In this document: piece after piece, positions 2,601-7,136 of the stretch
Layout: the number at the start of each line of letters is the position of its first letter
Numbering within the stretch: position 1 is the first letter of the stretch
Source of the DNA: Patescibacteria group bacterium
Lineage (GTDB): Bacteria > Patescibacteriota > Kazan-3B-28 > UBA10110
DNA length: 36,373 nucleotides
Assembly: GCA_018817805.1 (NCBI GenBank)
Contig: JAHITC010000034.1
Coordinates: 1-36,373 of the forward strand
Direction of reading: 5' to 3'
Program-made: the position numbers and the translations under genes
The notes under the pieces: model-generated
What the model was told of the DNA's origin: nothing
The model's database searches: none
Seen by the model: the letters and a program-made list of their open reading frames with translations, nothing else

Positions 2601-2696
2601 ATGGATCCAAGTGCAAAGAAAGTGATTATTTTACTATCAATTACTGTGCTAGGTGCTGGTGTTTATCTTTTGTGTTATTTTAATTCCATTGTTTGA
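2601..2696 (+). CDS. Small (31 aa) single-TM protein MDPSAKKVIILLSITVLGAGVYLLCYFNSIV
   Basis: ATG to TGA ORF below the track cutoff; candidate promoter TTGACT-18-TACGAT at 2524-2553; terminator directly downstream. Confidence 0.45.
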   Translation: MDPSAKKVIILLSITVLGAGVYLLCYFNSIV

Positions 2697-2717
2697 GATC
2701 ATTGGAATGGAAATCTG

Positions 2718-2744
2718 ACCCATCATTAATTGATGGGTTTTTAT
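2718..2744 (+). terminator. Rho-independent terminator
   Basis: ACCCATCA-ttaat-TGATGGGT followed by a T-rich tract. Confidence 0.75.
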
Positions 2745-2791
2745 TTAGTGATATAATACAAGTGTCATATCCTAACCCATGGGAGGAATTT

Positions 2792-3043
2792 ATGGCAGAA
2801 GGAAAGTTAGTTGGTAAAGTCGTTCACTATTACGACAAAATAGGGGTGGCTATTATTGAGCTCGCCGGCACACTTAAGGTTGGTGACAAGGTTAAGTTTG
2901 TCAAAGGTGACGACGAGGTCGAACAGGCCATTGTTTCGCTTCAGATTGAGCGAGAGGAAGTCGGGTCGGCAAAGAAAGGCCAAGTAGTTGGCATCAAAGC
3001 AGATTCGGTTGTTAAGGAAGGTACCAAAGTCTACTTGCTGTAA
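2792..3043 (+). CDS. Stand-alone translation-factor domain 2-like beta-barrel protein (83 aa)
   Basis: MAEGKLVGKVVHYYDKIGVAIIELAGTLKVGDKVKF... resembles the EF-Tu domain 2 pattern. The start at 2792 follows an SD (GGGAGGA), so the ORF-track start at 2693 is too long. Confidence 0.7.
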   Translation: MAEGKLVGKVVHYYDKIGVAIIELAGTLKVGDKVKFVKGDDEVEQAIVSLQIEREEVGSAKKGQVVGIKADSVVKEGTKVYLL

Positions 3044-3567
3044 TGAAACTAATCGTAGGGCTTGGTAATCCAGGTGCGAAGTATCAAAAAACGCGCCACA
3101 ATATTGGTTTTCGGTTAATTGATAAATTAGCCGGCGACCTTGAATTAAATTTTAGAACCAACCAAAAGCTACATTCTGAAATTGCGACTATTAAGGGTAG
3201 CCTAATATTGATGAAGCCTCAAACTTTTATGAATAACTCTGGTATTGCAGTAAAGGCAGTTATGCGAAAACAGGGCATAAAACCAGAAGATGTTTTGGTA
3301 ATCTACGATGATATCGATATGATTCTCGGTAAAGTGCGATTCAAAGCGGAGGGTAGCAGCGGTGGACACAATGGTATGCAATCAGTTATTGACGCGTTAG
3401 GTACCAACGCAATTGCTAGAATTAAAATTGGCATTGGTAGGTCTGATAGGTTGCCACCAGATAAACATGTGCTGGGAATGTTCTCAAAAGAAGAACTACC
3501 TCAAATTAAAATGAGCCTAGAAGAGGCAGATAAATTGATTAAAACTAAGTTCCCAATTGAAAAATAA
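3043..3567 (+). CDS. pth: Peptidyl-tRNA hydrolase
   Basis: MKLIVGLGNPGAKYQKTRHNIGF, LMKPQTFMNNSG, YDDIDMILGKVRFKAEGSSGGHNG. TAATG overlap with the previous gene. Confidence 0.96.
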   Translation: MKLIVGLGNPGAKYQKTRHNIGFRLIDKLAGDLELNFRTNQKLHSEIATIKGSLILMKPQTFMNNSGIAVKAVMRKQGIKPEDVLVIYDDIDMILGKVRFKAEGSSGGHNGMQSVIDALGTNAIARIKIGIGRSDRLPPDKHVLGMFSKEELPQIKMSLEEADKLIKTKFPIEK

Positions 3568-3574
3568 GCAGAAT

Positions 3575-3840
3575 TTGGGTAAGCTAAGAGAGGCGGTTAG
3601 CCCTTCAATATCGCTAGTTCGATGGCGATGAAGTTTGTTATTGAAGTGCTATGTGCCTCTCCTAACCCTCTCCCCCAAGATTAATATAGATGCCGAGCCC
3701 GAGGGCTTTTGACCGGACTCCAACAAGTAAATGTGAGTCGGGGCACCTATTTAAGTGACAAGTAAGGGGAATCTTGCCCGCGAGCTGAATCCAAGGAGGG
3801 TAGGACATTAGCTCACAAGGCAAGACTCCACTTGCTTAAT
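3575..3840. ncRNA. Large unassigned structured RNA candidate; strand uncertain, + favoured
   Basis: Multiple long nested complementary arms: CTTCAATA/TATTGAAG, GAGAGGC/GCCTCTC, GGTTAG/CTAACC, GACTC/GAGTC, TGCC/GGCA, TCTTGCC/GGCAAGA, GAGCT/AGCTC, CAAGT/ACTTG, TTAAG/CTTAA. No ORF. Confidence 0.5.
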
Positions 3841-3911
3841 CAGGTAAAACAAACATCATTTTGTTAAAGTAATCTCCTAATTATAACATATAATTTGTAA
3901 TTGGTCAAGAG

Positions 3912-6900
3912 GTGAGTTCGTCAATATTCGATCTATTGGTCGCCAAATTTGGAAATCTATCCGCTTATAAATTACTTAAGGGGAAGCTTGCCAACGGTAA
4001 AACTTATATTACCGGTCTTAATAATTTAGGCAAGTTAATTTTACTCTCTGAAACTGCCAAGGAAACTAAGAAAAAGATCGTTTATATTATTAAAAGTGAG
4101 GGTGAACAAATTACTCTTGATCGAGAGTTGAAGCATTTAACTAATCAATCGTTATATGTTTACCCCGATTTAAAGTCCGAGCATATTAATCGCCAGGAAT
4201 ATGTTAGGAATTTTGAAATGCGTTCTAAAATTACTCGTGCGTTTATGAAATCGAATGATGGTATCTATATTTTTCCAGTAAATGCGCTCATAGAACCAAT
4301 GACGAATCCAGTAAGTTTGTTCAGCATCAAATTAGGGGAAAAACAAAATCCTGAAAAAATTATCGCCAATTTAGTTGCTGCTGGGTACGAACGTCAGCAA
4401 AAAGTATTTCAAGCTGGTGAAGTGGCACTGCGCGGTGGCATCCTAGACATTTTTTCGGTTAATCGCGATCGTCCGTTGCGGATTGAGTTTGATGGTGAAG
4501 AAATAATTTCTATTAATGAGTTTGATCCAGTCGAGAATAAGCTACTCTTAAAGCTAACTACTGCCGAAATTCTATCTCTGAAGAGTGAAAAGATGAATAG
4601 CTACTTACTGGATATTGTTGAAGAGAACCCTAAAGACTATCTGTTAATTTTTAACCAAGCTGATGAAATCTTTCAGTTGTTATATGAGCTATATCAAGGC
4701 AACAGCCAGCACGATAGCGACATCTTAACTACTGTTAGTCGTCAGCTAGACGCTTTGTTCGCTTGGTATTTTGTAAGTATTCCACCAACAGAAGAGGGAC
4801 TGGTAAGGTTCGATTTAGAAAGTGCTCCATTGTTTGCAAATGATTTAAATAAACTATCCATCGAAATTAAAAAATATTTGAAAAAAAATTGGCAAGTTAT
4901 TCTAGCAACTACTAACAAGACGTTTTTGCCCGCATTGGCAGAACACGATTTAGCGGTAAGCAATGATGTAAATGATGGCTTAGTGCTAACAGAAATGAAA
5001 CTGGCGGAAGGGTTTGTGAGTCCTTCGTTAAAAACATTGTTACTAACAGATCAAGAAATTTTTGCACCAGTTATTAAAAGATCGCAAGAAGCACAAAAAA
5101 CTCCAAAAAAGAGACAACTGGCATTTTTGGCACAGATTGCTAAAGGTGATCATGTAGTACATATCGATTATGGGGTGGGGGAATTAACCGATATTAATAC
5201 TATTACAATCAATGGTGTGGCGCGGGAATATTTAATTATTCAGTATGCTGGTGCAGATAAAATTTATGTACCCATCGATCAGATTGATAAAGTTAGCAAA
5301 TACATCTCGGTTACTGGTGAAAAGCCAGTATTATCTAAACTTAATTCGCAAAGTTGGAAGCGATTGGTCAGTCGCATTAAAAAAGAATCTCAGGAATTTG
5401 CAAAAGAACTCTTAGACCTTTATGCAAAAAGGGCACTGAAAGAAGGCATCGCTTTTGATAGTGCAGAATTTTGGGAGAAGTCATTGGCCGATTCGTTTGC
5501 TTATAAAGAAACACCAGATCAAGAGCAGGTTATTCTAGACATAATACATGATATGGAAAAACCAAAACCAATGGATCGCTTGTTAGTGGCAGATGTTGGC
5601 TTTGGAAAAACTGAAGTAGCAGTTAGGGCCGCTTTTAAGGCAGTAACTTCTGGATTTCAGGTTGCGCTGCTCGCTCCAACCACTATTTTAGTAGAACAAC
5701 ATGTTAAAACCTTCACTGAGCGCCTAAGTCCCTTCGGTGTCCAAGTGGCGGCGTTAAGCAGATTTCGTTCGACAGTTGAACAAAAACGGATTGTTGCTGG
5801 GCTAAAAACTCGTGAAGTAGATGTGATTATAGGGACACATCGTTTGCTTTCTAAGGATATTCGATTTGCCAATTTAGGGTTAATTATTGTAGATGAGGAG
5901 CAAAGGTTTGGTGTACGCCATAAGGAAAGGTTAAAGATGCTTCGCTCGGAAGTCGATGTGCTAAGTTTAACTGCTACGCCAATCCCGCGGACATTAAACT
6001 TGGCTCTTTCGGGCATTAGAGATATTAGTGTTATTGAAACTCCGCCAGTTAATCGTTTGCCAATTCAAACTTCTGTGTCACCGTTCGATATGGAATCGGT
6101 AAAGAATTCTATTTTGAATGAAATTAAACGTGGTGGCCAGGTATATTTTGTGCATAATCGAGTGGCTACTATTGCAAGTGTAACGAATAAGTTAAAAGAA
6201 GTTTTGCCGGAAGTCAGATTTGTTTATGGTCATGGCCAAATGCCGGAACGATTGCTAGCAAAAATTATGGAAGATTTTAGTCAAGGGCAGTACGACTGTT
6301 TGGTGGCTAGCACAATTATTGAGAATGGCCTCGATAATCCCAATGTAAATACTCTAATTGTAGACAATGCTGGCTTTTTTGGTTTGTCGCAGTTACATCA
6401 ACTTAGGGGTCGCATTGGTCGTGGGAAAATTCAGGCCTATGCATATTTTTATTACAACCCTGGCAAACTCTCTGGTAGGGCATTGGAACGGCTTAAAACC
6501 ATTGCTGGGCACACAGAGTTAGGCAGTGGTTACCAAATTGCTTTGCGGGATATGCAAATTAGAGGGGCTGGGGGGGTGCTATCTAGCCGGCAACATGGCC
6601 ATATTAGTGCAGTTGGTTTAACTTTATATACCAAATTGCTTAATAGAACAGTAGAAGAATTAAGGTCTGGGCTTAGACCAAAAGTTGATAACATTACTGT
6701 TGATCTACCCATTTCGGCATACTTGCCAGATAGTTATATCGATAACGAAGCTCAACGAATTAAAACCTATCAGCATTTGGCTTTAATTGAAAATGAAAGA
6801 GAGCTTAAGGAAGCTAGAATAGAATTGGCCGAGAAATTTGGAGCGCTACCTAAAGAGGTTAATAGTTTATTTGATCTTTTGCACCTTAAGTTATTCGCTC

Positions 6901-7136
6901 TTAAAAGTCAAAAAGTTCAATCGATTGTGGCTCGAAATATTGCTCCATCTGGTGTTAAAGTACCAGTCTATTTGGCAACCATAACATTAGTAATACCCAT
7001 AAAAGATATGGATGTACTGAAAGCGCTAACAAAAACTGGATTTAAATGTGATGGAAGATCAATTCAGGTTCCACTGGCTGCATTAGGCAACAACTGGATC
7101 GAAGGAATCAAAAAGATTATTGGTTTGTTAAAATAG
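3912..7136 (+). CDS. mfd: Transcription-repair coupling factor
   Basis: GTG start. CarD/RID-like region GDHVVHIDYGVGEL; helicase motifs ADVGFGKTEVAVRAAF, DEEQRFGVRHKERLK, LTATPIPRTL, QLRGRIGRG. Confidence 0.96.
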   Translation: MSSSIFDLLVAKFGNLSAYKLLKGKLANGKTYITGLNNLGKLILLSETAKETKKKIVYIIKSEGEQITLDRELKHLTNQSLYVYPDLKSEHINRQEYVRNFEMRSKITRAFMKSNDGIYIFPVNALIEPMTNPVSLFSIKLGEKQNPEKIIANLVAAGYERQQKVFQAGEVALRGGILDIFSVNRDRPLRIEFDGEEIISINEFDPVENKLLLKLTTAEILSLKSEKMNSYLLDIVEENPKDYLLIFNQADEIFQLLYELYQGNSQHDSDILTTVSRQLDALFAWYFVSIPPTEEGLVRFDLESAPLFANDLNKLSIEIKKYLKKNWQVILATTNKTFLPALAEHDLAVSNDVNDGLVLTEMKLAEGFVSPSLKTLLLTDQEIFAPVIKRSQEAQKTPKKRQLAFLAQIAKGDHVVHIDYGVGELTDINTITINGVAREYLIIQYAGADKIYVPIDQIDKVSKYISVTGEKPVLSKLNSQSWKRLVSRIKKESQEFAKELLDLYAKRALKEGIAFDSAEFWEKSLADSFAYKETPDQEQVILDIIHDMEKPKPMDRLLVADVGFGKTEVAVRAAFKAVTSGFQVALLAPTTILVEQHVKTFTERLSPFGVQVAALSRFRSTVEQKRIVAGLKTREVDVIIGTHRLLSKDIRFANLGLIIVDEEQRFGVRHKERLKMLRSEVDVLSLTATPIPRTLNLALSGIRDISVIETPPVNRLPIQTSVSPFDMESVKNSILNEIKRGGQVYFVHNRVATIASVTNKLKEVLPEVRFVYGHGQMPERLLAKIMEDFSQGQYDCLVASTIIENGLDNPNVNTLIVDNAGFFGLSQLHQLRGRIGRGKIQAYAYFYYNPGKLSGRALERLKTIAGHTELGSGYQIALRDMQIRGAGGVLSSRQHGHISAVGLTLYTKLLNRTVEELRSGLRPKVDNITVDLPISAYLPDSYIDNEAQRIKTYQHLALIENERELKEARIELAEKFGALPKEVNSLFDLLHLKLFALKSQKVQSIVARNIAPSGVKVPVYLATITLVIPIKDMDVLKALTKTGFKCDGRSIQVPLAALGNNWIEGIKKIIGLLK

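Follow-up and report, generated by a model that had tools for sequence, protein, structure and literature searches.

In the stretch of DNA analyzed here (the window, 36,373 nt from a 617-kb Kazan-order genome in 45 contigs), the genes for peptidyl-tRNA hydrolase (pth) and the transcription-repair coupling factor (mfd) flank a 344-bp gap (3568–3911, from the pth stop at 3567 to the mfd start at 3912) that has no ORF of at least 80 aa (Table 1). The first-pass annotation of this DNA had described the gap as free of ORFs, packed with long complementary arms and highly structured, and all of this holds: the arms are present, and the predicted fold exceeds chance on either strand (minus, 3568–3878, MFE −116.0, z −6.67; plus, 3540–3880, MFE −103.7, z −3.68; 0/100 shuffles each). 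The same annotation had read the arms on the plus strand and divided them into three domains. The arms do fall into three genuine domains; the RNA, however, lies on the minus strand, and the helix that had been called domain 3 is its 5′ hairpin. The annotation had missed which strand is transcribed, as well as the promoter, the conservation of the loop and the spread of the family through the phylum. We are highly confident that the gap holds a structured minus-strand RNA gene; its length is about 290 nt, with predicted ends near 3873 and 3580.

Table 1. Features of the pth–mfd locus in the window, and loop-bearing hairpins on IMG/VR contigs
Feature	Positions	Strand	Basis
pth (peptidyl-tRNA hydrolase), convergent neighbor	3043–3567	+	Pfam Pept_tRNA_hydro, 4e-57
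3′ hairpin facing pth, probable (bidirectional) terminator	3588–3661	−	Fold; compact version at the same place in G001–G003
Strand T, conserved purine-rich segment UUGGGGGAGAG ahead of the 3′ hairpin	3661–3685	−	Conservation
Domain B, closing helix around two hairpins (three-way junction)	3690–3746	−	RNAalifold consensus; both-side changes in the closing helix as well as in each of the two hairpins
Strand M, 3′ basal arm of hairpin A	3752–3774	−	Predicted pairing with the 5′ arm or, alternatively, strand T
Hairpin A (5′ domain), ~29 bp, conserved apical loop	3760–3837	−	Consensus structure and covariation; counterpart hairpin in 14 members aligned across distant families
Apical loop UACCCUCCUU, includes CCUCCUU, the 16S anti-Shine-Dalgarno core	3793–3802	−	Loop conservation
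Sigma70-type promoter	3880–3908	−	TTGACC 3908–3903, 17-nt spacer ending in TG, TATAAT 3885–3880; RNA start predicted near 3873
mfd (transcription-repair coupling factor), divergent neighbor	3912–7136	+	GTG start; Pfam CarD_TRCF_RID, TRCF, UvrB_inter, DEAD
Non-coding hairpins with loop GTTTTCCCCTCCTTGC	L125, 455–500; L126, 7820–7865; L130, 1170–1215		IMG/VR contigs

The promoter, the balance of G-U and A-C pairs, the folding energies and the z-scores place the RNA on the minus strand, with pth converging on it. This promoter, divergent from mfd, scores 11 of 12 against the consensus and has a TG ahead of the −10 element; each of the remaining eight Kazan-order genomes carries the 29-nt element before its RNA as well (9/9 in the order). 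Across the family, 30 of 33 members have a promoter scoring at least 10/12 on the RNA strand no more than 150 nt away, compared with 44 of 990 shuffles, and the remaining three members also have one, farther upstream in G004 and G005 and at −48 in G102. The four-genome consensus contains 21 G-U and 2 A-C cells when folded as the minus strand (alifold −64.7), compared with 2 G-U and 9 A-C cells for the plus strand (−46.0), and per-sequence z-scores prefer the minus strand in seven of nine genomes.

The order mfd, promoter, RNA, 3′ hairpin, pth is the same in all nine Kazan-order genomes examined, with pattern matches in Kazan records that include CP011216.1 (the complete genome G005), METB01000001.1, META01000001.1 and METE01000002.1. 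A covariance model, R1, matched 10 of 380 phylum genomes, including G195 from another order; G380 was a further member recognized after R1, and G274 was found via synteny, downstream of rplK. A second model, R2, matched 13 of 55 genomes of the class to which G195, G380 and G274 belong, and a third, R3, made from 14 hairpins, matched 22 of the 380 phylum genomes at E ≤0.01, where about four chance matches are expected; weak R3 matches were retained only where promoter and synteny agreed. The members retained come from 27 genomes, nine of the Kazan order and 18 others of the phylum spread over many families, and any single model detects only 10 to 22 of the 380 sampled phylum genomes. G205, which belongs to the same genus as G195, gave no match. 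The R3 match in G181 looks like chance, and eight pattern matches outside Kazan (L026, L028–030, L034, L036, L037 and L039) together with L040 were attributed to chance because no covariance model matched them.

Family members occur in two forms, and most genomes have one locus per form. The long form (~250–400 nt) lies mostly, where the neighbors are readable, between a divergent mfd or dprA and a convergent rplK or pth; mfd and rplK flank it in G106 and G144, and dprA and rplK in others. The short form (~75 nt; G214, G067, G291, G185, G120, G033 and G102) is hairpin A alone, mostly with a U-tract at its end, and presents the loop in a compact terminator-like hairpin usually neighbored by DUF2130 and thioredoxin genes.

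Covariation among homologs, on which the first-pass annotation had let its RNA claim depend, is strong. Among the four Kazan sequences, both partners had changed in 10 of 49 pairs, a count that no shuffle reached (0/500) and that lies well above slid controls; the same was true of 19 of 52 pairs in an alignment of three sequences from the second order. For hairpin A in 14 members of many families, both partners had changed in 16 of 18 pairs (0/500 shuffles) and 88% were paired, compared with 43–49% in slid controls. Strand T reads UGGGGAG or UGGGGGA in Kazan and GUAAUGGAGGG(G)A in other families. The loop of the 3′ hairpin carries a long insertion that is not present in G001–G003, and from the modeled fold this hairpin is probably a terminator, possibly acting in both directions. 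Short reading frames occur in single genomes (e.g., after AAGGAGGUAAUG in G033 and G291) and are not kept elsewhere, so we rejected a short coding sequence and, by inspection, judged the RNA to be non-coding. Taken from the sequence, the RNA in the pth–mfd gap is probably a stand-alone, promoter-driven non-coding RNA that represents, in Kazan, a Patescibacteria (CPR) family not described before, and we infer that it is expressed.

The family is a real and new one, and on its novelty the first-pass annotation was right. The RNA class had gone unrecognized in the first-pass annotation, and Rfam 15 likewise gave no match at gathering score at the locus, the best sub-threshold models being unrelated miRNA and sRNA families; 20 loci of relatives, scanned at relaxed thresholds, returned nothing relevant either, and we found no description of the RNA in the open-access literature. 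In size, structure and stand-alone character it is like tmRNA, RNase P RNA and SRP RNA. The earlier failure to find hallmarks of tmRNA or RNase P RNA is borne out: G005, the complete Kazan genome, has a gene for each elsewhere, and Rfam locates its rRNAs and tRNAs outside the locus of the RNA too, with no match at that locus; the locus in the window has neither the tRNA-like domain with tag ORF of tmRNA (RF00023) nor a match to class A RNase P RNA (RF00010). With 6S RNA (RF00013) it shares a stand-alone, long rod-like structure, but the Kazan-type RNA has no large central bubble, its loop is anti-Shine-Dalgarno-like, and the 6S model does not match at the pth–mfd locus. Elsewhere in G001, G003, G000 and G002 there are sub-threshold 6S candidates (L009–L012; 33–38 bits against a gathering score of 46.4) that are probably diverged 6S RNAs; none was found in G004–G006.

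Closer parallels lie among RNAs with C-rich loops. The actinobacterial 6C RNA has a pair of hairpins whose loops are both C-rich (about six C), and RsaE/RoxS-type sRNAs of Firmicutes carry UCCC/CCUCC-type loops complementary to Shine-Dalgarno sequences. Like 6C/B11, the RNA described here is stand-alone and has a C-rich hairpin loop able to pair with G-rich 5′ regions of mRNAs. Unlike 6C/B11, it has a single long hairpin with CCCUCC(UU), so that there is one C-rich loop, CCCUCCUU, per RNA and the other hairpins are not C-rich; the long form has in addition the three-way junction of domain B and the M/T exchange, the phylum is a different one, and the 6C covariance model matched neither the window nor the 20 loci of relatives. 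Complementarity of the loop to Shine-Dalgarno sequences is shared with the RsaE/RoxS type, from which the RNA differs in its 25- to 30-bp stem, its conserved mfd/dprA–rplK/pth synteny and the lack of an Rfam match.

The feature that most directly suggests a function is the apical loop of hairpin A, which nearly always exposes (C)CCCUCCUU, matching the anti-Shine-Dalgarno tail of 16S rRNA. The sequence GUCCUACCCUCCUUGG is invariant in G000–G003, and in the 14 aligned members CCCUCCU is invariant while the stem covaries heavily, with CCCUCCUU unpaired within an apical loop of 10–14 nt and thus complementary to Shine-Dalgarno sequences. The 16S rRNA of G005 ends in AACACCUCCUUUCU and keeps the canonical anti-Shine-Dalgarno, and most Kazan genes in a crude gene set have a recognizable Shine-Dalgarno. 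Hairpin A is without CCUCC in G006 and G008, both of the Kazan order, and in the long forms of G120 and G067, indicating that the loop is not the sole function of the long form; the short forms of G120 and G067 do carry it. In short forms, the loop GGUUUUCCCCUCCUUGCC is conserved over 14–18 nt, as it is in the phage copies, which exceeds what Shine-Dalgarno pairing needs.

By analogy to 6C/B11, we consider it somewhat better than an even prospect that the RNA acts in trans, pairing with Shine-Dalgarno sequences through this loop. Hairpin A would hold the anti-Shine-Dalgarno-like loop on a long rigid stem, and pairing of the loop with G-rich Shine-Dalgarno sequences of mRNAs (AAGGAGGG) would block or tune binding of the 30S subunit. 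In the mycobacterial B11/6C sRNA, mutation of the C-rich loop lifts repression of an mRNA whose 5′ UTR contains a G-tract (PMC10470900). Sites with AAGGAGGG number 17 in G005 and 31 in G067; three of the former and about half of the latter stand at Shine-Dalgarno spacing before a start codon, among them those of a fabH-like gene in G005 and of genes for HU, a PilB-type ATPase and signal peptidase I in G067 (all named by eye). Such sites are leads and not targets. Their presence at start codons is expected from ordinary Shine-Dalgarno use. Shine-Dalgarno sequences with long complementarity to the short-form loop occur in G067 at 679202 (+), 483417 (+), 872406 (−) and 459488 (−), ahead of genes that by eye are HU-like, PilB-type ATPase, phosphoglycerate mutase-like and signal peptidase I-like.

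In the long form, strand M would quit the 5′ arm and pair with strand T after T has been transcribed, producing a two-state molecule. Over 19 long forms, the duplex of 5′ arm and M has a mean energy of −19.9 kcal/mol, compared with −11.5 for non-cognate pairs, and that of M and T a mean of −17.2 kcal/mol, compared with −13.2 for non-cognate pairs and −11.4 for shuffled T; in each case 0/5000 permutations were as good. The two helices are mutually exclusive, M being common to both, and the M:T duplex of the window itself is short (−10.8). Because the M and T segments were picked by eye and kinship of the members inflates the permutation test, these values are only suggestive of strand exchange. 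In the second order (L076 1968–2138, L074 1970–2166 and L073 1958–2139, minus strand), a downstream AAGGAG(G) is complementary to the hairpin loop over 7–9 nt, where CUUGC/GCAAG and CUUAC/GUAAG differ by a compensatory change, and a pseudoknot between loop and 3′ region is possible there. We did not take this pseudoknot as a general feature because the pairing, 7–9 bp by inspection in G195, G274 and G380, is weaker or absent in Kazan.

Relatives of the RNA probably also occur in some phages. The 18-nt loop GGTTTTCCCCTCCTTGCC lies in non-coding hairpins of two IMG/VR contigs, L126 and L125, and a third, the G+C-rich L130, has the 16-nt core of the loop on a perfect terminator hairpin. A sigma70-like promoter (TTGACA-type/TATAAT) stands upstream of the hairpin in L126. 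Judged from their sequences, the three hairpins are possible phage mimics of the bacterial RNA. Pattern matches in L127–129, L131 and L132 fall inside ORFs and were dismissed as chance.

Two other accounts of what the RNA does deserve weight, although we regard both as unlikely. It may be a protein-binding or ribonucleoprotein RNA in which the C-rich loop binds a conserved protein or the ribosome, so that the molecule would serve as a sponge, scaffold or regulator in the manner of 6S or CsrB. We raise this because the conservation of GGUUUUCCCCUCCUUGCC over up to 18 nt in short forms and phages, beyond the need of Shine-Dalgarno pairing, allows for a fixed partner, and domain B and the M/T strands are kept in long-form members without the CCUCC loop; against it, the loop core is exactly that of the 16S anti-Shine-Dalgarno, and no partner protein gene is constant beside both forms. 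About as doubtful is a more far-reaching form of the trans-acting model, in which the RNA would be a CPR mimic of the 16S tail, its anti-Shine-Dalgarno on a rigid stem damping initiation globally, the exchange of 5′ arm and T acting as a switch, and phages having copied it for host takeover.

The remaining explanations fare worse. The 3′ hairpin sits where a convergent gene pair needs a terminator, and the conserved hairpins could be only a cis element, a bidirectional terminator or RNA polymerase insulator between mfd and pth or rplK; this is improbable given the dedicated near-consensus promoter, the large covarying domains A and B with their invariant unpaired loop, and the presence of the RNA in phage contigs and at loci unrelated to this one (DUF2130/thioredoxin). 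The phage loops of 18 nt (L126, L125) and 16 nt (L130) could instead point to a mobile or phage-derived hairpin spread through CPR genomes without host function, which is also improbable given a synteny held over long distances with compensatory changes, and given that most genomes have just one locus for each form. The plus strand, as a pth 3′ UTR or mfd leader, also folds beyond chance, as in relatives, and has GGA motifs in a loop, so that AAGGAGGG/GGA could make it a CsrA-type sponge or ribosome-binding decoy; we rejected this very improbable reading because every genome has the promoter on the minus strand and the G-U versus A-C test and alifold energies point the same way, and covariance model scores in G000–G003 are 148–158 bits for minus and 27–39 for plus, with a model itself built on the minus strand. 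Least credible is a strongly diverged housekeeping RNA, above all SRP RNA. In its favor, neither SRP model (RF00169, RF01854) matches any of the seven Kazan-order genomes G000–G006, the locus included, and SRP RNA is thus not detectable elsewhere in Kazan. The RNA has no visible S-domain motif, however, in line with the first-pass annotation, which found no SRP RNA hallmarks, and a motif scan of G005 (CP011216.1) found no ORF with both SRP-GTPase motifs; taken with the lack of SRP model matches, this suggests that the signal recognition particle may have been lost in Kazan. The rRNAs, tmRNA and RNase P RNA have genes of their own, weak 6S candidates lie elsewhere in G000–G003, and the other family members fail every relevant Rfam model as well.

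Little is known of RNA regulators in CPR bacteria. A family in 27 genomes that combines a dedicated promoter, conserved synteny and a covarying fold with an unpaired loop equal to the anti-Shine-Dalgarno core provides a concrete candidate translation regulator for these mostly unculturable organisms. It may be an overlooked regulator of translation across distant CPR lineages, and the apparent phage copies would imply a contest over translation initiation.

Two further observations concern the surroundings of the family. A small ORF lies 5′ of pth in the window (2693–3043), with a weak match to EF-Tu domain 2 (2.7e-5, under the Pfam cut-off), and a similar small ORF (‘GKVTHYYDKIGVAIVELA’) is found ahead of pth in other Kazan genomes. 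In the 16S gene of G005 (L044, 9326 to 9580), the anti-Shine-Dalgarno end lies ~240 nt past the end of the cmscan match, an offset that points to an insertion close to the 3′ terminus of this gene.
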